A stretch of DNA of 64,000 bases, taken from NCBI GenBank assembly GCA_934364795.1, contig CAKRMK010000002.1, positions 1 to 64,000 of the forward strand. The letters run 5' to 3'. The notes under the pieces are model-generated. The model was not told the DNA's origin. It worked only from the letters and a program-made list of their open reading frames with translations, and made no database searches. This stretch comes from an uncultured Blautia sp. GTDB lineage: Bacteria > Bacillota > Clostridia > Lachnospirales > Lachnospiraceae. Every line of letters starts with the position of its first letter. Position 1 is the first letter of the stretch. Made by a program: the position numbers and the translations under genes. Shown here one piece after another: positions 1-10,066 of this stretch.

Positions 1-127
1 CGCCTTCTTCATTTGGATTGCCTTTTCCTCTAACTGCAATATAATTTGCCTTAGGTACATTTACAATCTCTGGTTTATTCTTAGGCATATAAAATTCTTT
101 AAATTCTTTCTTAAAATCAAAAGCCAT
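1..127 (-). CDS. GyrI-like small-molecule-binding domain protein, N-terminal part
   Basis: The first 42 codons of a minus-strand gene that runs off the left edge. It begins MAFDFKKEFKEFYMPKNKP and continues with IVNVPKANYIAVRGKGNPNE. This is the characteristic opening of stand-alone GyrI-like (AraC effector-binding/Cass2-like) proteins of Clostridia, which bind hydrophobic small molecules. The ATG at 125-127 follows a GGAGG with a 5-base gap, so the start is firm. The C-terminal part is outside the window. It was probably the direct downstream neighbour of rlmD before the island at 450-6019 arrived. Family call from remembered sequence pattern. Confidence 0.75.
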   Translation of the reverse strand, partial: MAFDFKKEFKEFYMPKNKPEIVNVPKANYIAVRGKGNPNEEG

Positions 128-431
128 AATAACCTCCAAAATTTCGACTTACCGAATTTCCCTTCACATCTATTCCACTGCCTACAAACACCCAAACTGG
201 TCGAGTTGCCGGATTGGTTGTCAACCCTTTCCGTTTTTCAAAAATCAGCCCAAAATGCCTGACATCTAATCCACTGTCTCAAATCGCGACATCTAATCCG
301 AGGTTACAACCTGACACAGATTTCGCGGTAGATATGTTTCCATATAAAACAACCGAGCTTTTTCAGAAGTCTGGCTTCAGATCCAAACCTTCGAAAAAGC
401 CCGGAAATACGCCGCTTTCTGGCACTTAATT
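128..431. other. Non-coding stretch with short repeats and a hairpin
   Basis: No credible gene lies between the GyrI-like start and the rlmD remnant. Three imperfect copies of a short motif are visible: ACATCTATTCCACTG (166-180), ACATCTAATCCACTG (262-276) and ACATCTAATCC (289-299). A hairpin pairs GCTTTTTC-GAAG (357-369) with CTTC-GAAAAAGC (389-400), with one bulged A and a loop of about 19 bases. It has no U-tract, so I do not call it a terminator. A TTGACA-like sequence near 217-222 (minus strand) has no good -10 partner. Confidence 0.5.
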
Positions 432-467
432 TTATTTCCTTGACATCAATACTACCGTCTCCACATG
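432..467 (-). pseudogene. rlmD: Displaced native 3' end of rlmD (attachment-site scar)
   Basis: On the minus strand 467 to 432 reads HVETVVLMSRK-stop, which is the usual C-terminal end of RlmD/RumA proteins. The resident rlmD instead reads HVETVVLLSHKK at the same point and continues for about 100 more residues. The sequence upstream of the HVETVV codons here does not match rlmD. This is therefore only the last 11 codons of the gene, left behind when an element integrated at those codons. It marks the distal end of the island. Confidence 0.8.
450..467 (+). repeat. Left copy of 18-bp att-like direct repeat
   Basis: TACTACCGTCTCCACATG, identical to 6002-6019. It encodes HVETVV of RlmD on the minus strand. 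Identity stops at both ends (next bases differ), as expected for the crossover core of a site-specific recombinase. Confidence 0.85.
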
Positions 468-569
468 AGTACCAAATTAAAACATATCCCCACAAAATCA
501 CGGGACTACGGAAATATTTTTACAGTACTACTACCGTTCGTATAACTCTTTTCCCACAAATATTGCCTG

Positions 570-2153
570 TTACAGTAATCTCCTTTCTATCAATTTTCTC
601 CGCATTTCATCTAGTTTTAAAATTTGTTTATGTCCCCATTCCTTTTCTATTGTTTTTAAATTAACAAACGCAATAATTTTATCAATATTTTCGTTTTCCT
701 TAAACATTTCTGATAATTGCTTAATATCATCTTTATTAATTTTTCGATAAGGAATAGCCAGACTTTTAAATTCACTTGGTGTTAATTCCGAAACGCCTCC
801 AGCATAATATCGCCCATAAAATTCGCATTGAGTTAATGTCAACGAATTGTAAAAGCAAAATGCCATACTCTCTTTATCGTATTCAGAATCCAATCTCATA
901 TTATAAGCAATATCTGTTGTATAAAGATCTGTTTCATTTACACATATTCTTGGCATTTTATCATACCTTTTAAAGAAAAAAAGATCCCCATTTCGTACAA
1001 TTGGCACTCCATACCATGGCTTTCTGTTTCTGCATTTATATCTGTCTTTCAATTTTACTTCCGCCGCATTTTGTTTTTCCCCAATACTTGTCAAATATTC
1101 CCTCAAAGACTTCGAAAATAATTTCTCATCAACATGTGATAAATTCAACAAATAAATTCTATCTCCTCTTTCTCCGATTTTTTCAACCACATCTTGAGTT
1201 AATATGAACTGACCGTTTAACATATTACTTTTAGCAATTGTCGGCAAAATAAACTCTTGGCACTCTAATTGTTCTACCTGTTCTTTTGTTAAAATAAACT
1301 CATTATTTGCTCCCGTTACAATTCCAGGCGAGGCTTCACACACTTCGGAAACTTTCTTGTAGTTTGAGTCAATCTTATTCAATAAATCAATCTCTTCATC
1401 TGATAGAATAGCATTCGTCCATTTTTTTAATGGTTTATTTCTTTGAATTTTAGAACAATAATATGGCGAATCTGAATCCAGTTCAGCATAAATTTTAAAA
1501 TTTATATATGGTTGATTCTTAAATTCATTTGTCAAATAAACCAAGCAAGATTCTTGTTCTATTTCTGGAAACATCCTTTCTTTAAAAGACAAAATATGTA
1601 TTGTATCAAAATGTTCTTCCAAAAATAATCTAATTTTTTCTGCATATTGAACCTGCAGAAACTCCATCGGGAGTACAAAAAAAATAGTTCCCTCTCTTTC
1701 CAAACAGGATACTGCTGCCAGTACAAAAGCAACCCACATATTCTGCATTAGAGAATTAGGTAATTGAAATTTTTCGCAAATTTCTTTTGCTTTTTCTTTT
1801 GAATTGTCCTCAATATTCTTAATATTAATATATGGTGGGTTTCCAATAATCAACTGATACTTTACACTTGTCTTCTCTGCAAAATCCAGAAAATCGCTTG
1901 CAATTATCTCTACCTTTTCTAAATAACCTCTATTTTTTAACTGTTCTACCTTTTCTTCGATTAATTCTACGGCGACTATTTTTTCAATACATTTTTCCTT
2001 TTCAAAGGCATCTACAAATCTCCCATCCCCCACTGATGGCTCTAACATTTTTCCGTATATTTTATGCTCTCTTGCCAAATATTCTTTCATGAATTGAATC
2101 GTACTATATGGCGTATAGTAAGAGCCAGATAATTTGTCCTCTATCTTTTTCAT
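570..2153 (-). CDS. Eco57I/TaqI-type N6-adenine DNA methyltransferase
   Basis: A 527-residue class I methylase predicted to transfer a methyl group from SAM to adenine N6 in DNA. Seen: YYTP (12-15), SAM-binding motif I EPSVGDGRF (38-46), and catalytic motif IV NPPY (105-108). These are followed by a long C-terminal half that probably contains the target-recognition domain. The order X-I-IV is that of gamma-type (M.TaqI, Eco57I) enzymes. No PD-(D/E)XK nuclease motif was noticed, so cutting would fall to the HNH neighbour. Its ATG shares one base with the TAA of the HNH gene (TAATG), which indicates translational coupling. It is last in the operon. It may protect self DNA or mark the targets of the system; the recognition sequence cannot be read from the protein. 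Confidence 0.85.
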   Translation of the reverse strand: MKKIEDKLSGSYYTPYSTIQFMKEYLAREHKIYGKMLEPSVGDGRFVDAFEKEKCIEKIVAVELIEEKVEQLKNRGYLEKVEIIASDFLDFAEKTSVKYQLIIGNPPYINIKNIEDNSKEKAKEICEKFQLPNSLMQNMWVAFVLAAVSCLEREGTIFFVLPMEFLQVQYAEKIRLFLEEHFDTIHILSFKERMFPEIEQESCLVYLTNEFKNQPYINFKIYAELDSDSPYYCSKIQRNKPLKKWTNAILSDEEIDLLNKIDSNYKKVSEVCEASPGIVTGANNEFILTKEQVEQLECQEFILPTIAKSNMLNGQFILTQDVVEKIGERGDRIYLLNLSHVDEKLFSKSLREYLTSIGEKQNAAEVKLKDRYKCRNRKPWYGVPIVRNGDLFFFKRYDKMPRICVNETDLYTTDIAYNMRLDSEYDKESMAFCFYNSLTLTQCEFYGRYYAGGVSELTPSEFKSLAIPYRKINKDDIKQLSEMFKENENIDKIIAFVNLKTIEKEWGHKQILKLDEMRRKLIERRLL

Positions 2154-2815
2154 TATTGTATTCCGCCTGTCACTGTCATACGATTTCTTTTCTTTAATAA
2201 AATGCTGAGGCTTTCACCTAATTTGCGTTTACGATTCTCATCCTTTTCGGCTTGATACTTGCCCTCAATCTGTAATCCCAAATAATCTATACGTCTTGTC
2301 TCATACCCTAAGTGAAGGGCATCATAAAATTGTTGTACAAATTCGTCATCCTGATATGTATCGCAAATCTGAATGTAATAATCTTCATCTCTCTTAAAAA
2401 CAGTTGTTATATTCCCATTATCTACATTAAGTAAATTATCATATGGTGGCTTAATTGTAATTCCACGTTTCCCACGATTGCATGATATACAAGCCCATGC
2501 CAAATTAATCATTCTACCCGCTTCTGCCCTCCCCGCCGTTGTATCTGGAAAAGAAGCCTCATTTAAAAAATGATCAACTTCAAAGGACTCAACAGGTAGA
2601 AGCCCCCACATGGCACCGCAATATGCACACTTATCATTATAAATTTTCGCAAACTTTTTATGATACACACTATCCCGATCATTCACCTTATTATATACTA
2701 TCTTTGTTCGTGGAAACGCTGATTTTATTTCTTTTTCCAAGGCATTTTTTTGTTCCTCAACCTTATCCAATACAGGACAATATATTGTATTTCTATAATC
2801 ATTATCTCTTGTCAT
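2153..2815 (-). CDS. HNH endonuclease of the island operon
   Basis: A 220-residue protein with a clear HNH/treble-clef nuclease core. Seen: zinc pair CAYC (63-66), the EVDHF segment with metal-binding D81 and H82, the mid-motif Asn (N104 in MINLAWACISCNRGKRG), and the second zinc pair C109/C112. It is related to the HNH proteins found in retron and Septu-type defence loci (family-level inference). There is an N-terminal 60-residue region and a charged C-terminal helical region of unknown role. A ribosome site AGGAG overlaps the end of the preceding gene 11 bases upstream. It is the likely DNA-cutting effector of the operon. Confidence 0.85.
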   Translation of the reverse strand: MTRDNDYRNTIYCPVLDKVEEQKNALEKEIKSAFPRTKIVYNKVNDRDSVYHKKFAKIYNDKCAYCGAMWGLLPVESFEVDHFLNEASFPDTTAGRAEAGRMINLAWACISCNRGKRGITIKPPYDNLLNVDNGNITTVFKRDEDYYIQICDTYQDDEFVQQFYDALHLGYETRRIDYLGLQIEGKYQAEKDENRKRKLGESLSILLKKRNRMTVTGGIQ

Positions 2816-2826
2816 ATCACTTACTC

Positions 2827-3420
2827 CTATTCCATACTCTGGAAAGCGGTAATTAATTTGTCAATATCCTCTTTAGATAAATCCTCATAATCATTTAACC
2901 CATTTAAAGAATCCACTGTCTTTTCAACCAAAAACTTTTCAATTCCTTTATTACTCTCTAATTTTTTTGAAATATTTCGAAATGTGATTACTCTTTTTAT
3001 ACTCTCATCTATTTTGCTTTTCAACACTCGTTCATAATATTCTTTTGATGTCTCCGAACTTCCGCTTCTATACTTTGGGATAATTTCAAAATCTCTATTT
3101 TCACCATTCTGTGAAATTACCAAAACCTCAATAAAAGGAAATACTTTTCTCAATATCATTCTAAATTCTTCTCCCGAAAACTTTCCTTTACATTTTACAC
3201 TATCATTTTCAAACAACCTAGAATCAATTATTATAACATTTGCAGAAGCTACTTCTGGAGAATCCAATAACCCCTCATAACCTTTATTAACTTCAAATTC
3301 AATTTCCTGATATCTCACCTCATACTTATCATTCTGATAATAATCCTCTAAATAAGAAGATATTGCTTCATCTCGGTCATCGTCAATATAAACAAGGTTT
3401 ATTATTTCTTTTATTTTCAT
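2827..3420 (-). CDS. Response-regulator-like receiver protein without output domain
   Basis: A 197-residue protein whose first 120 residues fit a CheY-like receiver. Seen: the acidic pocket YIDDD (11-15), the phospho-acceptor position D66 in IIIDSRLF, the switch Ser S103 in VISQNG, and the conserved Lys K116 in IPKYR. A long insertion separates strands 1 and 3. The remainder is helical with no recognisable DNA-binding domain. Its ATG overlaps the TGA of the upstream GHKL gene (ATGA), so the kinase-like protein and this receiver are translated as a pair. Probable role: relay between the GHKL protein and the HNH/methylase pair, by phosphorylation or by protein contact. Divergent; receiver call is from motif reading. 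Confidence 0.65.
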   Translation of the reverse strand: MKIKEIINLVYIDDDRDEAISSYLEDYYQNDKYEVRYQEIEFEVNKGYEGLLDSPEVASANVIIIDSRLFENDSVKCKGKFSGEEFRMILRKVFPFIEVLVISQNGENRDFEIIPKYRSGSSETSKEYYERVLKSKIDESIKRVITFRNISKKLESNKGIEKFLVEKTVDSLNGLNDYEDLSKEDIDKLITAFQSME

Positions 3421-5570
3421 ATTTTATCTCCTATCATAAATTCAATTTTAAATCCTTCTAACCCTTCAATTTTAAGTATCTTTCCTCCTGTATTAACAAT
3501 CGTATTATTCACAATCCACATCCCTATTCCATGACCTTTTTTTCTTGATGTTTCATGCACCTCCAAAATACGCATGGGATCAAACTTATATTTTTCCGAA
3601 AGTCCCTTACCCTTATCCTTATATACCATATTAATATATCTTCCTTTTTTTTCTACATATATGTGAATTTCCAGTATGTTTTCAGCATCATTTTGTTGTA
3701 TACTATTTAATATCAAATTTTCAAATATTACTCTAAAAATATCTTTAGCACTTCTATATTCCAATCCCTCTTCTATATGCAATTGAATATGAATCCACGA
3801 ATAATCCTTTTCCCAAACAGATTTTATATTTTTAAAAAGTTCATATAAATTAATATTCTCTGGAACAAACTGCTCTTTTTCAGATTCTGACAGCATCACA
3901 TCCATAAAAGTAATAATTTTTCTATTAACTCTTCGATTTTTTTCTAAAAGTGCTGGAACATCTCTATGCATATATTTCGTATTTTCAGGATCATTTACAG
4001 CATCCCAAAGCTCATATCTTTTTAACGCTCTAATAATGTAATCGACATTTTCGTCAATACTATTCCTGTCATTATACATTTCATGTGCAATAGAAGTCGC
4101 TTTTAATCCAGAGGTGGCGAGCATATTTAGCAGACGAATATCATATTTATACCTTCTTTCTGTTTCATTCATCTGATTTTTACTTGCTCTATTTTCTTTT
4201 CTCATCTGTTCCAATTCATCAAGAAACAATTTCTTTTCTTCAAATGACAGTTCTGTCAATTTTTCTGGATTTTTCATTACACTGTCAATAACTTTAGGCT
4301 TGCTTTCTTCCTTTGTCTCATTATACTTATTTGCAATACAGCGAACTATACTTTGTCGATACCTTTCAAAAGAATTTATTCCTGCAATAATAATTGCAAT
4401 AAATACTTTATAAATATCATTTTCTACCAGACCTTGTCTATTCATTAAATCAGATAACCCATTATTTTCCTTTTTATCAATAATAACTTTACCCGACATT
4501 TGATTTTCTCGGACACGCCATGATCCTGTAGGATGACTGGCTGCTGCTGGAGATTTTCTAGACCTTTTACCAAATCCAAGCCAGTCTTTCTTACCTTCGT
4601 AAGAGGAAATGCTAAATGCATTTCTGTACAAAACAACACCTGCTTCATACCGATCATCCAACATTCTATGCTTATAAAAATACTTTTCCGCATCAAACGT
4701 AGAAGGATTTTTTAACGAAAAATACAATTCAGCTGAAAAATCCCCCACATTTTCCAATACCTCTTTCCATTCTTCAAGAGTTTCTTCTTCAGATAAATCA
4801 TTTTTCATATCATCCAGTTCGTCCAAGATATTTAGTTCTATTTTCTGTTTTTTTATATCAACGTCTGGACATAACTCTTTTACATTTTCTTTAAATTCGT
4901 CTGATTCTATATCACATACTAACTTTTGAAATTTTGCAAAATACTGTAATCTTATTACACTGACACAGTTAACTCCTAGCTGTATTTTTCCAAAATACCG
5001 AGTTACAGCTTTTCTATCTTCTTTATACTCTACTTGTATCCTCATTTTATCATCATTATAAGTTCTAGACAAAAATTCACGCAAATTACGCACTCGCGAT
5101 TCTGTCCAATTGTCCCGAAGATACTCGATAACTATTTTTGTACCTCTTTCTTTTATCTCCTGATAAATTTCCAAAGTGTTTGTATTCCAGTCTGTCTTCC
5201 ACAAAACTGCTTCTTGTTGTTCCATTTTTGTATAAACACTGGCTTTTGCCCCCAAACGAGCTATTGCAAATCTGCCAACTCCTTTAGAACCTGCCAACAC
5301 TCTCGCAGTCTCTCCCTCACCTATAATATATTTCTTATCGCTTATACCAACATGCATCCATGCCTCAAGTATTTTTTGACGATTCATACCAATTCCATTA
5401 TCTTCAATTATAATCTGAGTTTTAGAAATAATAATAACAACATCCAGTGACTGGGCATCATATGCATTTTTTACTAGCTCTAATATTGCGGATTCTTCAT
5501 TTGTAAAATTCTGTACTCCCAGCACTTCTGCAATTGTACTATCTTCAATAATATATTTTAATTTTTCCAT
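3417..5570 (-). CDS. Dual GHKL ATPase: Hsp90/MORC-like module fused to a histidine-kinase-like module
   Basis: 717 residues from the ATG at 5570, which has GGGAGG 7 bases upstream; an in-frame TTG 15 bases further up overlaps that site and is rejected. The N-terminal GHKL domain shows ELVKNAYDA, EDNGIGM and GSKGVGRFA within about residues 30-105. A MutL/Hsp90-like transducer region follows (LYRNAF, then DWLGFGKRSR). A coiled segment leads to an H-box-like SIAHEM (His about residue 496). A second GHKL domain then shows N-box ENLILNS (about 617-623), G1 DKGKG and G2 HGIGMWI (about 679-685). GHKL ATPases of MutL/MORC type are known partners in restriction-modification operons. Here the protein heads an operon with a receiver, an HNH nuclease and a methylase, so it is the likely sensor or clamp of a defence system. 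Whether it autophosphorylates cannot be told from sequence. Confidence 0.8.
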   Translation of the reverse strand: MEKLKYIIEDSTIAEVLGVQNFTNEESAILELVKNAYDAQSLDVVIIISKTQIIIEDNGIGMNRQKILEAWMHVGISDKKYIIGEGETARVLAGSKGVGRFAIARLGAKASVYTKMEQQEAVLWKTDWNTNTLEIYQEIKERGTKIVIEYLRDNWTESRVRNLREFLSRTYNDDKMRIQVEYKEDRKAVTRYFGKIQLGVNCVSVIRLQYFAKFQKLVCDIESDEFKENVKELCPDVDIKKQKIELNILDELDDMKNDLSEEETLEEWKEVLENVGDFSAELYFSLKNPSTFDAEKYFYKHRMLDDRYEAGVVLYRNAFSISSYEGKKDWLGFGKRSRKSPAAASHPTGSWRVRENQMSGKVIIDKKENNGLSDLMNRQGLVENDIYKVFIAIIIAGINSFERYRQSIVRCIANKYNETKEESKPKVIDSVMKNPEKLTELSFEEKKLFLDELEQMRKENRASKNQMNETERRYKYDIRLLNMLATSGLKATSIAHEMYNDRNSIDENVDYIIRALKRYELWDAVNDPENTKYMHRDVPALLEKNRRVNRKIITFMDVMLSESEKEQFVPENINLYELFKNIKSVWEKDYSWIHIQLHIEEGLEYRSAKDIFRVIFENLILNSIQQNDAENILEIHIYVEKKGRYINMVYKDKGKGLSEKYKFDPMRILEVHETSRKKGHGIGMWIVNNTIVNTGGKILKIEGLEGFKIEFMIGDKI

Positions 5571-5609
5571 GAATTGCCCTCCCAATCAGCATTCACCTCT
5601 TATATTACA

Positions 5610-5638
5610 ATTATACCCTCTGCCTGAAATTGATACAA
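5610..5638 (-). promoter_or_regulatory. Promoter of the island operon
   Basis: Minus strand: -35 TTGTAT (5633-5638), 17-bp spacer, perfect -10 TATAAT (5610-5615). Transcription would start near 5603, about 33 bases before the ATG at 5570. It lies just downstream of the rlmD stop, so the operon has its own vegetative-type promoter. Confidence 0.75.
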
Positions 5639-5668
5639 TCCCTTATACATCTCTCAAAATAAATATAT

Positions 5669-6001
5669 TTAGGCTTCTCCAAAATACCTTAACGCATCCT
5701 TTATCGCTTCCACTTTCTCTGCCGTCGGATGTTTCCTCGGCTGTTTCAATTCTTCTACCGCATTAGGAGCATCATACATTGGCAAGCCTAAATCTCTCTT
5801 TACCTCTGCGATATATGCGGTATGTACTTTGAAGCCGTATTTAGCTTCTATGTACTCCTTTATCATTTTGTAGGTCACTCGTTCTTTGGGCTTATAGCTT
5901 TCGGCTCTTTTAGCGATATTATCAAGCGGAACTTTTCCCTCACCCTCACCAAACTCAACTTTTACGTTGATATGTCCGTCTGGCTTTTTGTGGGAAAGCA
6001 G
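5669..6001 (-). other. Foreign C-terminal tail domain fused to RlmD
   Basis: About 110 codons starting right after the 18-bp repeat, replacing the native LMSRK end. The middle (TYKMIKEYIEAKYGFKV, then AYIAEVKRDLGL) has the helix spacing of a small DNA-binding or adaptor domain. Similar tails follow RlmD in other clostridial genomes as far as I recall, which I interpret as a passenger that restores the target gene. Function unknown. Confidence 0.6.
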
Positions 6002-7348
6002 TACTACCGTCTCCACATGCACTGTCTCACAAAACTGATCCACACTACAACTTCTCTTCACTTCATACCCTGCCTCCAAAAAAGCAGGCAGATCCCTGGC
6101 CAGGCTGGTAGGCTTACAGGAAATATAAACAATATTTTCCACACCATATGCAAGAATCTTCGGCAGAGCCTTCGGATGGATTCCATCTCTTGGCGGATCC
6201 AGAATGATCATATCCGGCTTTTCTGTAAGATCATCCAGAACCTTCAGCACATCCCCGGCGATAAAACGGCAGTTTGTCAGCCCGTTAAGTCCTGCATTTA
6301 TTCTGGCGGCTTCCACCGCTTCTTCTACGATTTCCACCCCAATTACCTCTTTTGCCACAGAAGCCAGAAGCTGTGCGATGGTACCGGTTCCACTGTAAAG
6401 GTCAAATACCTCTTTATCCCTGGTATCGCCAATATACTCCCTTACAACGGAATACAGTACCTCTGCTGCCAGAGAATTAGGCTGGAAAAAGGAAAAGGTG
6501 CTGATCTTAAACCGAAGCCCAAGCAGTGTCTCATAAAAATAATCCTGTCCATAAAGAATCCTTGTCTCATCACTTTGAACCACATCGGACAAAGAATCAT
6601 TGATAATATGCATAATACCCACGATTTTTCCCGCCAGAGGAAGTGCAAGAAGCCTGGACACAAGAGGAGCATAATCATATTCAGACTGACTTGTGGTAAT
6701 CACATGAACCAGAATTTCCCCAGAAGTCACCCCACGGCGAAGAAGCAGATGGCGCAGATATCCTGTATGCTGCATTTTTTTATAATGTACAGCCCCAAGC
6801 TCTGTAAAAAATTCCAGTACACAGGAAAGAATAGAAGTCAGATCCGGATGCACCAGTTTACAGTCTGACGCAGTCAGTACATCGTAGGTGCTGCCCTTTT
6901 TATGGAGTCCTAAAGAAAGGGGACCGTCCTTAAACTCGTCGCCAAAAGAAAATTCCATTTTGTTACGGTATTCAAATTCAATAGGACTTCCATGAATACC
7001 TTCCCAATGAAGATCCACATCCTCACCTACTGCACTCTGAAGAAGGCTTTTTACCTGGTTTTCTTTCATTTTAAGCTGTTCTTCATAGGACATGGTCTGA
7101 TACATACAGCCTCCACAGGCAGGAAAAATACTGCATACAGGCTCTCTTACTTCCAATGGAGATTTCTCAAGAACCTCCAGAAGCCTTCCTTCAGCTCTTC
7201 CTGAACGCTTTTTATTAATCATGAAACGTACCCTTTGTCCCGGGATACCATTCTTCACAATTACCTTTTCCCCATCTATATTTACATATCCTTTATTGGG
7301 AAAATCCACTTTCTCTATAATTCCCTCATAAATTTCGCCTTTTTTCAT
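5669..7348 (-). CDS. rlmD: 23S rRNA (uracil-5-)-methyltransferase RlmD with element-derived tail
   Basis: 559 residues; methylates a 23S rRNA uracil using SAM. An N-terminal TRAM domain (about 1-60) is followed by the iron-sulfur cysteines of CSIFPACGGC. Then come the methylase core with DLYSGTGT, LDPPRDG and the catalytic Cys in YISCKPTSL, and HVETVV near residue 444. Ordinary RlmD proteins end about six residues later. Residues 450-559 here are an extension (KPKERVTYKMIKEYIEAKYG and on to the end) that looks like a small helical, possibly helix-turn-helix, domain supplied by the integrated island. ATG preceded by GGAGG. The catalytic part is intact, so activity is expected. Confidence 0.93.
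   Translation of the reverse strand: MKKGEIYEGIIEKVDFPNKGYVNIDGEKVIVKNGIPGQRVRFMINKKRSGRAEGRLLEVLEKSPLEVREPVCSIFPACGGCMYQTMSYEEQLKMKENQVKSLLQSAVGEDVDLHWEGIHGSPIEFEYRNKMEFSFGDEFKDGPLSLGLHKKGSTYDVLTASDCKLVHPDLTSILSCVLEFFTELGAVHYKKMQHTGYLRHLLLRRGVTSGEILVHVITTSQSEYDYAPLVSRLLALPLAGKIVGIMHIINDSLSDVVQSDETRILYGQDYFYETLLGLRFKISTFSFFQPNSLAAEVLYSVVREYIGDTRDKEVFDLYSGTGTIAQLLASVAKEVIGVEIVEEAVEAARINAGLNGLTNCRFIAGDVLKVLDDLTEKPDMIILDPPRDGIHPKALPKILAYGVENIVYISCKPTSLARDLPAFLEAGYEVKRSCSVDQFCETVHVETVVLLSHKKPDGHINVKVEFGEGEGKVPLDNIAKRAESYKPKERVTYKMIKEYIEAKYGFKVHTAYIAEVKRDLGLPMYDAPNAVEELKQPRKHPTAEKVEAIKDALRYFGEA
6002..6019 (+). repeat. Right copy of 18-bp att-like direct repeat
   Basis: TACTACCGTCTCCACATG inside rlmD, identical to 450-467. 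It codes for residues 444-449 (HVETVV). Confidence 0.85.
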
Positions 7349-7373
7349 AATTCCTCCAAAAATTCCTGTTTTA

Positions 7374-7424
7374 TAAAAAAATAAGGTATACGGGAGAGCA
7401 TAAATGCCATATGCCCGTATACCT
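7374..7424 (-). terminator. Intrinsic terminator between the 76-residue membrane protein gene and rlmD
   Basis: AAGGTATACGGG (7383-7394) pairs perfectly with CCCGTATACCTT (7413-7424). On the minus strand the stem is followed by a U-rich run (7374-7382). It ends the upstream small gene and may reduce read-through into rlmD, which starts 26 bases later. Confidence 0.8.
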
Positions 7425-7463
7425 TCTTACTAAACAATCTCAATTAAATGAAATAACCTACAA

Positions 7464-7694
7464 TTATTTCTCTTCATCCTCAAAGTAATCATCATACTCA
7501 TCATCGAAATCTTCTTCAAAATCTTCCAGATAATCTGGTGCGAAGAAACGATATACAGCAAATGCAATTCCTGCAACAGCCGCTACAGCACCAACGATAG
7601 CCAGTACCCAGAGGACTGTATTCTTCTGCTTGTCTTCTTCTTTTTTCTTAAGTAATGATAATAATTCCTCGAGCTTATCCATTTTAATGTTCAT
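7464..7694 (-). CDS. Small single-pass membrane protein with acidic tail
   Basis: 76 residues. The N-terminal 26 residues are charged and helical (KLEELLSLLKKKEEDK). One membrane helix follows (about 29-50, VLWVLAIVGAVAAVAGIAFAVY), then an extremely acidic C-terminus rich in Asp/Glu/Tyr. No cysteines. Monocistronic, with its own terminator. I recognise it only as a conserved-looking clostridial protein of unknown function. Positive-inside reasoning is ambiguous because the tail is acidic. Confidence 0.7.
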   Translation of the reverse strand: MNIKMDKLEELLSLLKKKEEDKQKNTVLWVLAIVGAVAAVAGIAFAVYRFFAPDYLEDFEEDFDDEYDDYFEDEEK

Positions 7695-7834
7695 ATAATA
7701 CCATCCTCTCTTTCATACAGCTTGCACACGCATTGCGCTCTGCTTTTCAGATTTAATTATTATACCACTTTTATAATAATTTTACCATAGAGAATAACTT
7801 TATTTTTTATTATTTTCCAAAGCTCACATGTCCT

Positions 7835-10066
7835 TTAAATCTTTTTCAGCTTTGCAAAACTTGCGAACATTTTCTTGACTCCTACCTTGTCAAATTCCAC
7901 CGTAACTTCATAATCTCTGCCGCCTTCTACGATTTCCTTGACAATTCCCACGCCAAATTTAATATGACGCACAGTGTCACCCACTTCATAGTCCAGAGAA
8001 CCGGCTTTTGTTACCTTGAATTCTCTTGGCTTATAATTTCTTCCCTGAAGAATTTCTTTCATTTTGGAATATTTGGCGGGAGTTGGAATCAGATCCTCTG
8101 CTTTTGGCTTTTTCTCCTGAATGGTATGTCCAAGATCCACCAGTTCCCTTGGGATTTCCCTTACAAATCTGGAAACCCGGTTATACTGTGTCTCACCTCG
8201 GATCATTCTCTGCTGGGCGCAGGTCAGGGTCAGATCCTTCATAGCACGGGTAATTCCCACATAGCAAAGCCTGCGTTCTTCTTCTAGCTCGCTGTCATCG
8301 CCGTAGCTGATAGTCATATGACTTGGAAAAATACCATCTTCCATTCCAACCATGAAAACCTTTGGAAATTCCAGACCTTTGGCACTATGTAAGGTCATAA
8401 GCAATACATAATCCTGATCCGGATCTACTGTATCAATATCTGCCACCAACGCTACTTCCTCCAGAAATCCGGAAAGTGTTGCCGGAACATTCTGTTCTTC
8501 CATTGCCTCCTGATAAGCTACTGTCTTGGAAATCAGCTCATCAATATTCTCAATCCTGGCTCTGGATTCCTCTGTATCCTCCGCCTCAAGCTCTGCCACA
8601 TAACCGGTTCCGTCAATGACCTCCTGCAGCAGCTCTTCTACAGAAAGTACATCTGCCTTGCTTTTCAGACTCTGGATAAATGTCACAAAACCATCAATCT
8701 TTGAAACACTTCTTCCAATGGATGGCACCTCTTCTGCAACCCGAAGAGCCTCATACAGACTGATTCCCATATTATCTGCATAATCCTGCACTCTCCCCAT
8801 GGTAGTCGCACCAATTCCACGCTTTGGCACATTAATAATTCTCTGTACTGCCAGGTCATCTCTGGCATTGTCAATGGTTTTCAGATAACACAAAAGATCT
8901 TTGATTTCTTTTCGTGCATAGAAATTTACACCGCCAACCAGCTTATACGGAATGTTTGCAGAAATAAATTTTTCCTCAAAAATTCGTGACTGGGCATTGG
9001 TACGGTAAAGAATGGCACAGTCACGGTAGCTTCCAAGGCCATCTCTTTTTAATTTTCCAATTTCACCGGCAACATATTCTGCCTCTTCGTACCCATTAAA
9101 AAACTGGCGAAAATGCACCTTGCTGCCCTCTTCATTCTCGGTCCACAAGGTTTTTGCTTTACGCTCTTTATTATTGGCAATCACCTGGTTGGCTGCATTT
9201 AAAATATTCTTGGTGGAACGGTAATTCTGCTCCAGACGGATCACCTTTGCATCTGGAAAAACACGCTCAAATCCAAGAATGTTTCCAATATTTGCCCCGC
9301 GGAATTTATAAATAGACTGGTCATCATCACCTACTACACACAAATTCTCATATTTCTGCGCCAGAAGGCTGATAAATTTAAACTGCGCTGTATTGGTATC
9401 CTGGTACTCATCCACCATAATATACTTAAAACGCTCCTGGTAGTATTCCAGCACAGCCCCGCAGTTCTGAAACAGCTCCACAGTTTTCACAATCAGATCA
9501 TCAAAATCCAGTGCATTATTTTTGCGGAGTGCTGCCTGGTATTCCCGGTAAACAGCAGCTACTTTCTTCATATTATAATCACCGGCAGCTTTCATCTCCA
9601 TATCATCAGGAGTCATCAGCTCATCCTTTGCATGGGAAATTTGTGCAAGCAAAGATCTCTCTTTGTAAACCTTTGTATCTATATTCAGTTTCCTGCATAC
9701 ATCCTTCATCACGGATTTCTGGTCATCTGTATCGTAAATGGTAAAATTCGTATCATATCCCAGATTATCAATATGTCTTCTCAAAATCCGCACACAGGCA
9801 GAATGAAAGGTGGAAACCCAGATGCTTTCAGAACCAAAGCCAACCAGCTTATCCACACGCTCTCTCATTTCCTGGGCAGCTTTGTTGGTAAAAGTAATTG
9901 CCAGGATATTCCAGGGATTTACCCCCATTTCTTCCATAAGATACGCAATTCTGTGCGTCAGTACTCTCGTCTTACCAGAACCGGCTCCAGCCAGTATGAG
10001 AAGAGGTCCCTCCGTCTGCGCTACAGCCTCCCTCTGGGGAGGATTTAATGTATCATATATGCTCAT
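7835..10066 (-). CDS. pcrA: ATP-dependent DNA helicase PcrA/UvrD
   Basis: 743 residues, the usual length for PcrA, a 3'-to-5' superfamily 1A helicase for repair and clearing of replication blocks. Seen: Walker A AGAGSGKT near the N-terminus, DEYQDTN, GDDDQSIYKFRGA, QNYRS, the LHSAKGLEF motif, and YVGITRA. The last 50 residues (DTVRHIKFGVGIV and on) form the Tudor-like domain that in PcrA contacts RNA polymerase. GGAGA precedes the ATG. Single gene, divergent from the DUF1836 gene. Confidence 0.96.
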   Translation of the reverse strand: MSIYDTLNPPQREAVAQTEGPLLILAGAGSGKTRVLTHRIAYLMEEMGVNPWNILAITFTNKAAQEMRERVDKLVGFGSESIWVSTFHSACVRILRRHIDNLGYDTNFTIYDTDDQKSVMKDVCRKLNIDTKVYKERSLLAQISHAKDELMTPDDMEMKAAGDYNMKKVAAVYREYQAALRKNNALDFDDLIVKTVELFQNCGAVLEYYQERFKYIMVDEYQDTNTAQFKFISLLAQKYENLCVVGDDDQSIYKFRGANIGNILGFERVFPDAKVIRLEQNYRSTKNILNAANQVIANNKERKAKTLWTENEEGSKVHFRQFFNGYEEAEYVAGEIGKLKRDGLGSYRDCAILYRTNAQSRIFEEKFISANIPYKLVGGVNFYARKEIKDLLCYLKTIDNARDDLAVQRIINVPKRGIGATTMGRVQDYADNMGISLYEALRVAEEVPSIGRSVSKIDGFVTFIQSLKSKADVLSVEELLQEVIDGTGYVAELEAEDTEESRARIENIDELISKTVAYQEAMEEQNVPATLSGFLEEVALVADIDTVDPDQDYVLLMTLHSAKGLEFPKVFMVGMEDGIFPSHMTISYGDDSELEEERRLCYVGITRAMKDLTLTCAQQRMIRGETQYNRVSRFVREIPRELVDLGHTIQEKKPKAEDLIPTPAKYSKMKEILQGRNYKPREFKVTKAGSLDYEVGDTVRHIKFGVGIVKEIVEGGRDYEVTVEFDKVGVKKMFASFAKLKKI

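Follow-up and report, generated by a model that had tools for sequence, protein, structure and literature searches.

A four-gene operon encoding a kinase, a receiver, an HNH nuclease and an adenine methylase on a small island in an uncultured Blautia: a candidate two-component-controlled restriction system

INTRODUCTION

Histidine kinases that combine a HATPase_c_3 domain, an H-box in which the histidine is followed by an acidic residue, and a HATPase_c domain were reported in 2021 beside stand-alone receivers with a conserved aspartate and restriction-modification (R-M) genes, under the family names HEF_HK and Response_reg_2 (Bellieny-Rabelo 2021, PMC8011034). In the available text of that survey, the commonest nuclease neighbor was HNH_2, the methylases were mainly C5 enzymes, and control of R-M was offered as a speculation. 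The operon described here lies, on an island, at the start of a 64,000-nt stretch of contig CAKRMK010000002.1 from an uncultured Blautia sp. (the whole stretch is called the window). It shares with the HEF_HK/Response_reg_2 pairs the kinase architecture, the adjacent receiver with its aspartate, and the R-M neighborhood including an HNH gene; it differs in that the methylase is an N6 Eco57I-type enzyme and the HNH nuclease is a steady member.

Several other described systems resemble the operon in part. The paraMORC R-M operons (Iyer 2008, PMC2292703) likewise combine methylases and, in some cases, HNH with an N-terminal GHKL ATPase, but the accessible part of that paper describes no second kinase domain or receiver, and the window operon has no superfamily II (SFII) helicase. 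Detocs, a defensive two-component system constituting a family of three-gene systems, also puts two-component logic to the service of defense, but its best-described effector in the text available, a purine nucleoside phosphorylase (PNP), degrades ATP (PMC11249213, PMC10952713), whereas the window operon has a separate HNH nuclease and a methylase. The GHKL-ATPase Shedu protein VcSduA couples a GHKL ATPase to a nuclease in phage defense, and its authors hypothesize that the ATPase controls the nuclease; it is, however, a single fused protein with a PD-(D/E)xK nuclease, and the portion of the report consulted describes neither a receiver nor a methylase (PMC12137116). The HNH effectors of Septu (PtuB) and of retrons belong to the same HNH family, whereas the window operon has a relay and a methylase, and no PtuA ATPase or reverse transcriptase was found in it. 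The BbrUII/HgiDII restriction enzymes (NF050001) are alike in their N-terminal GHKL domain. Finally, HATPase and REC domain names appear together in unvalidated DefensePredictor predictions, as given in a figure legend (PMC13092281, Fig. 6F). A literature search, with subscription papers and bioRxiv outside it, found no paper on the exact four-gene set.

RESULTS

A compact operon of relay, nuclease and methylase genes

Four touching minus-strand genes (5570..570) encode, in order, a kinase, a receiver-like protein, an HNH nuclease and a methylase (Table 1), with intergenic gaps of -4, +11 and -1 nt; the overlapping or touching arrangement proposed in the initial annotation was thus borne out. 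The kinase start was placed at the ATG behind GGGAGG (5570), which the listed TTG start at 5585 precedes. The near-consensus promoter that had also been proposed stood only in part: its -10 element is perfect, but its -35 element matches at only three of six positions, and a promoter scan of positions 1-7500 did not list the site. That scan returned 33 promoter-like sites, no excess over shuffled sequences (29.6, standard deviation 5.7). Terminator-like sites in the same region numbered 8, against 3.1 in shuffles, and a terminator-like hairpin (488-505, minus strand) directly follows the methylase gene, before the far repeat.

Table 1. Coordinates of the operon, the island ends and associated features in the window
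Feature	Position	Strand	Remarks
Island-end direct repeat (att-like), far end	442..467		exact 18-bp core at 450
N6-adenine DNA methylase, 527 aa	570..2153	-	Eco57I domain (NPPY at 105) + M_Eco57I_C
HNH nuclease, 220 aa	2153..2815	-	PADLOC PtuB 1.3e-5; C63/C66/C109/C112, D81-H82, N104, N113, K116
Stand-alone receiver-like protein, 197 aa	2827..3420	-	D13/D14, D66, S103, K116
Dual-GHKL histidine kinase, 717 aa	3417..5570	-	Pfam HATPase_c_3 + HATPase_c
Possible promoter	5610..5638	-	-10 TATAAT 5610-5615, perfect; -35 TTGTAT 5633-5638; 17-nt spacer; read by eye
rlmD 3' end inside island	5669..6001	-	encodes ~110-aa C-terminal RlmD extension
Island-end direct repeat (att-like)	5994..6019		inside rlmD codons for HVETVVLL; exact 18-bp core at 6002

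Residue conservation was tabulated over 19 loci: the window and 18 others with all four genes, picked among the loci retrieved. The tables excluded L003, L009 and L010 (contig ends or broken genes), L008 (interrupted kinase), L004 and L046 (without a cognate methylase), L011 (deletion), and L005 (kinase split over two frames, receiver and HNH sharing a single open reading frame); L073 and L074, which have four genes, and L058 and L082, whose kinase is fragmented, also fall outside the tables. The receiver start used for L040 is too late, so that its acidic pocket is lost; the same gene as row L024 shows the pocket.

The kinase carries an N-terminal MORC/Hsp90-type GHKL ATPase (HATPase_c_3, residues ~26-134, 2.9e-18), a long helical middle region followed by an H-box with His496, and a C-terminal ATPase (HATPase_c, ~612-699, 2e-12). 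His496 was present in all 19 loci and was followed in all 19 by Glu or Asp. Profile matches in PDB were HtpG/Hsp90 and MORC3 (MORC3, E 7e-4) for the N-terminal part and ZraS, YycG and SrrB for the C-terminal part, and MutL models matched the N-terminus below cut-off. The best NCBIfam match was the BbrUII/HgiDII model NF050001 (3.3e-17), which aligned with residues 20-177 only and scored 62.3 bits against a cut-off of 550. The structure model of the kinase was poor (mean predicted local distance difference test [pLDDT], 61.8; predicted template modeling score [pTM], 0.33), and the S5 region relevant to the paraMORC comparison was not visible in it.

The window receiver had no Pfam match above cut-off. 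Its predicted structure, together with sub-threshold PF00072 matches of homologues (L038, 2e-5; L042, 5.4e-4; L013, 0.0036; the L012 homologue had none), points to a receiver-like fold. The phospho-acceptor position, Asp66, was conserved in 19 of 19 loci, as was Ser/Thr103; Lys116 occurred in 17, with Arg in the other 2. A helical tail was modeled with low confidence, and no DNA-binding domain was recognized.

Neither did the window HNH protein match a Pfam model above cut-off; TIGR02646 matched at E 0.0016, also below cut-off. Homologues matched Pfam HNH in L012 (5.7e-5), L013 (2.1e-9), L038 (4.9e-14) and L042 (1.8e-6), with no Pfam match for that of L073, and matched the PtuB families of PADLOC at 8.7e-18, 8.1e-13 and 1.2e-14, which indicates kinship with PtuB and retron HNH proteins. 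Residues C63, C66, H82, N104, C109, C112, N113 and K116 were invariant across the 19 loci, and D81 was present in 17, with Glu in 2. Both residues singled out in the initial annotation, Asp66 of the receiver and His82 of the nuclease, were correctly numbered and present in all 19 loci.

The methylase matched the Pfam domains Eco57I (4.8e-15) and M_Eco57I_C (4.1e-27), and its NPPY motif was found in all 19 loci. Comparison with named defense systems used PADLOC models on single proteins, without PADLOC system definitions, and gave a graded answer: the methylase matched type II models strongly (MTase_II, 1.5e-128), the HNH protein matched PtuB weakly, the kinase N-terminus matched REase_II weakly (1.2e-8), and the receiver matched nothing. 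No PtuA match was obtained in the operon, whose ATPase is the GHKL kinase; no match named Detocs appeared in PADLOC, a 2023 library in which the presence of Detocs models was not established; and Pfam revealed no PNP domain in the operon.

Recurrence of the gene set across genomes

In a Lachnospiraceae sample centered on G001, the genome of locus L001, a kinase match at E<=1e-20 was found in at least 12 of 299 genomes, G001 included; because only two or three candidates were scored per genome, the tallies at this level and at class level (391 genomes) are lower bounds. Receiver and HNH genes lay beside the kinase in all 12 loci, and all four genes were contiguous in 11 (G001 and 10 of the 11 others), the exception being L046, which lacks the methylase. 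The order was kinase-receiver-HNH-methylase or methylase-kinase-receiver-HNH. The families therefore passed the test of co-occurrence by which the initial annotation could have failed. Chance adjacency was ruled out, because the set recurs in 19 loci and its genes are never more than 26 nt apart in them (range, -32 to +26 nt, with gene starts annotated or chosen by us).

A search for related loci yielded 11, with four genes in L001, L002, L005, L006 and L007. In L004, kinase, receiver and HNH genes are followed by a type I-like modification (M) and specificity (S) pair (S by eye); L003, L009 and L010 are truncated by contig ends or broken, and L008 is interrupted. The single receiver-HNH frame of L005 (5214-6278) encodes 354 aa; it may represent a fusion of natural origin or, given the split kinase there, a product of decay or assembly. 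In L011 (10001-17206), kinase residues 1-288 are joined to the HNH C-terminus, apparently a deletion remnant, and HsdR and other type I R-M genes lie alongside.

At class level, the kinase was matched at E<=1e-15 in at least 9 of 391 genomes, of which G001 is one. All four genes were present in three (G001, L073 and L074), and L077 was broken. In the other five (L072, L075, L076, L078 and L079), a C5-like methylase (by eye) accompanies the kinase, together with a receiver-like protein that is 306-333 aa long, and no HNH gene lies alongside. Fifteen plasmid loci, hand-picked rather than drawn at random among the matches listed, included five with the set, from Salipiger (L012), Bacteroides (L013), Ensifer (L014), Deinococcus (L018) and Klebsiella (L058; kinase in pieces, methylase by annotation only). 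The gene order was the same on the Salipiger, Bacteroides and Ensifer plasmids and different in Deinococcus. Among the remaining plasmid loci, L015 (Hymenobacter, 5752-9531) and L061 (Burkholderia, 4119-7909) have the order methylase, kinase, receiver-like protein and metallo-β-lactamase (MBL)-fold hydrolase, the last in place of HNH; L016, L017 and L060 have large partner proteins; L062 and L080 lie by C5 methylases; and L059, L081 and L082 have other neighbors. The kinases of L017 (1-13788) and L060 (4590-9817) stand beside PAPS-reductase-family genes, in L017 also beside a cysteine desulfurase gene, neighborhoods suggestive of phosphorothioate-type modification.

A scan of viral contigs found no relative. 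The Bacteroides kinase, used as a query, brought up two scaffolds from a phage collection (L083 and L084), both short and unverified; their related kinases are preceded by methylase-like genes and followed by large proteins (by eye). A phylum-level search with a wide alignment (A5) returned 1 of 398 genomes, the center genome itself; with at most two candidates scored per genome, it is uninformative on absence.

A tree of the kinases from 37 loci, built with FastTree and rooted at the midpoint, grouped 21 HNH-type kinases, those of 19 four-gene loci plus L004 and L046, with support of 0.99. The kinases of the four-gene loci L018 and L073 fell outside this group, near the MBL forms (0.75); the C5 forms occupied two other places and the large-partner forms another.

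By architecture and setting, the family corresponds to HEF_HK: HATPase_c_3, H-box and HATPase_c with an adjacent receiver, and a methylase that is contiguous in nearly all family-level loci. Membership by sequence was rejected. At E<=1, the window kinase did not match PF19191 (HEF_HK), nor did the window receiver match PF19192 (Response_reg_2). For each model, none of 4 system-carrying genomes and none of 14 controls exceeded the cut-off, with weak matches elsewhere in the system-carrying genomes and no positive control in the scan, and the homologue proteins scanned gave no match (cut-offs of E<=1, E<=0.01 or E<=0.1, by set). The suggestion that the system was undescribed is accordingly only partly right: the kinase architecture with a receiver by R-M genes had been published (PMC8011034, as far as its text was available). 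What appears new, judged by sequence, is a family outside PF19191 and PF19192 in which HNH and N6 methylase genes are steady members.

Co-divergence of kinase, receiver and nuclease, and exchange of the methylase

Correlations between pairwise-identity matrices were 0.977 for kinase and receiver, 0.932 for kinase and HNH, and 0.920 for receiver and HNH; those of the methylase with each of the other three were 0.70-0.72. None of 2,000 permutations reached any observed correlation. Two cases point to exchange of the methylase. The core of L037 (G264:C118) is 50, 44 and 36% identical to that of the window in kinase, receiver and HNH, respectively, while its methylase, which sits upstream rather than downstream of the core, is of another family, 19% identical to that of the window and 40-46% identical to the type-B methylases of L038, L041, L042 and L045. 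Between L039/L044 and L042/L043, the methylase halves are 61-77% identical and the cores 23-29%; conservation was not consistently lower in the C-terminal half of the methylase than in its catalytic half. From the higher core correlations and these two cases, the methylase appears to have been exchanged while kinase, receiver and nuclease stayed together. A methylase that had been recruited anew would not be a bystander.

The HNH protein of L037, the clearest of the swaps, is itself more diverged than expected, 32-36% against 44% for L036 (to the window) at similar kinase identity (48-52%). We therefore do not conclude from the swap that the HNH protein reads no sequence, and the same divergence weighs against a simple reading in which the methylase sets all specificity.

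An island in the 3' end of rlmD

The operon occupies a 5.57-kb island in the 3' end of rlmD, with direct repeats at both ends and a G+C content of 32.5% (450-6019) against 42.3% in 7401-64000; repeats and composition confirmed the minimal island proposed earlier. None of the island genes encodes an integrase. The island is probably mobile. The first 445 aa of the window RlmD are 34% identical to those of L001 and the remainder 92%; the corresponding values for L010 are 58 and 90%. The rlmD product of L040, recognized as such by eye and by the repeat core, has 464 aa, against 559 in the window. These comparisons indicate that the rlmD 3' end, and with it the RlmD C-terminal extension, travels with such elements.

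The repeat core was sought in the window (<=3 mismatches) and in 13 loci (<=4 of 18 mismatches). It was present in the window, L001, L008, L010 and L040, and no match was found at that threshold in L002 to L007, L009, L011 or L036; rlmD is therefore one site among others. The four genes lie between two cores in the window, where both are exact, and in L001, where the cores have 1 and 4 mismatches. In L010, cores at 4933 and 9514 mark an upstream element followed in tandem by the four-gene-type element.

Serine integrases are known to use rumA/rlmD as a site in streptococcal integrative and conjugative elements (ICEs), where, in the available text, insertion swaps the 3' part of rumA and alters the C-terminus (PMC4701971). 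The island lies at this known site and is alike in this replacement; the ICEs carry an integrase, whereas the 5.57-kb island does not.

Neighboring defense genes were seen at two of these sites. In L010, the first tandem element holds a specificity subunit and an N6 methylase that also has an HSDR_N_2 domain; in L001 (9942-13832), an HNH protein, AbiH and a nuclease of the Mrr type are encoded beyond the right repeat. A large serine recombinase gene lies ~3 kb upstream of the rlmD fragment in L008. In L040 (3014-12704), a system of the other subtype lies directly downstream of the rlmD-like gene, which a UvrD/PcrA-like gene precedes, as in the window (both by eye).

DISCUSSION

The operon is best read as a mobile R-M-type defense operon with a two-component switch, in which methylase-protected restriction would be gated by a His-Asp relay; we put this at about an even chance. 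It is preferred because the four families recur as a unit, even among distant bacterial lineages, with conservation of the residues expected for the relay and for HNH; this supports the relay-gated restriction first suggested for the locus, if not its full novelty. In such a system, the methylase, judging from its family, would mark host DNA. The kinase would read an invasion signal, probably via its MORC/MutL-like N-terminal ATPase, and autophosphorylate at His496, and the phosphate would pass to Asp66 of the receiver. With no DNA-binding output domain recognized, the receiver would most likely act by protein contact, turning on or releasing the HNH nuclease, which would then cut DNA without the methylase's mark. 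Two observations weigh against this picture. Related kinases are found with other partners, and 4 of the 19 kinases (L040, L042, L043 and L045) have a degenerate G1 box, NxGx[C/E/M]; their His and N box are intact, and their C-terminal ATPase may bind ATP differently.

The relay might instead free a Septu- or retron-type HNH effector that kills or stalls the infected cell regardless of methylation, with the methylase put to some other use. PtuB being the closest PADLOC family of the HNH protein speaks for such an abortive or collateral effector, as does the occurrence of related kinases with MBL hydrolases, and the pairing of cores with different methylases would be easier to understand if the HNH protein read no fixed site. 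We nevertheless consider it unlikely: 11 of the 12 family-level loci have a methylase contiguous with the other genes, the L037 nuclease looks, in one case, as if it had changed with its methylase, and the best PDB profile matches of the HNH protein are Cas9-type (0.0019), with the retron Ec78 HNH at E 0.81.

Less probable still is an ordinary type II pair of HNH nuclease and methylase for which kinase and receiver set only expression or timing. Control of expression is the usual role of two-component proteins, but this receiver has no recognized DNA-binding domain, and divergence is more closely matched among kinase, receiver and HNH than between any of them and the methylase. A pseudo-two-component machine, in which HNH joins the kinase and the receiver-like protein in a GHKL clamp and no phosphate is transferred, would suit the dual GHKL domains, the Hsp90/MORC-like N-terminus and the degenerate G1 boxes; His496, Asp66, the acidic pocket and Ser/Thr103 are, however, conserved beyond what a scaffold would need, and we rate it marginally below the ordinary pair. 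A DNA repair module, in which a MutL-like ATPase and a nicking enzyme of the HNH type are linked to a solitary methylase, would accommodate the MutL/MORC-type N-terminus but is very improbable given the patchy presence (12 of 299 genomes), island location, low G+C content and defense neighbors.

Relay-gated restriction could extend beyond this operon. Tentatively, and at somewhat less than an even chance, two-component restriction may be a general class, with the dual-GHKL kinase and receiver as a portable switch coupled in separate lineages to HNH and N6 methylase, to MBL-fold hydrolase and methylase, to C5 methylases and to PAPS-reductase-family neighborhoods. In the HNH/N6 branch, the methylase would be an exchangeable specificity part, and restriction would stay off until the His-Asp phosphorelay fires. 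Classical restriction is usually thought to be always on and controlled by methylation and expression. If the proposal is true, a restriction nuclease switched post-translationally by a phosphorelay would follow another logic of control, one that could account for the entry of such systems into new hosts that then survive. With the conserved His496/Asp66 pair and the naturally swapped methylases, the idea is open to direct test.

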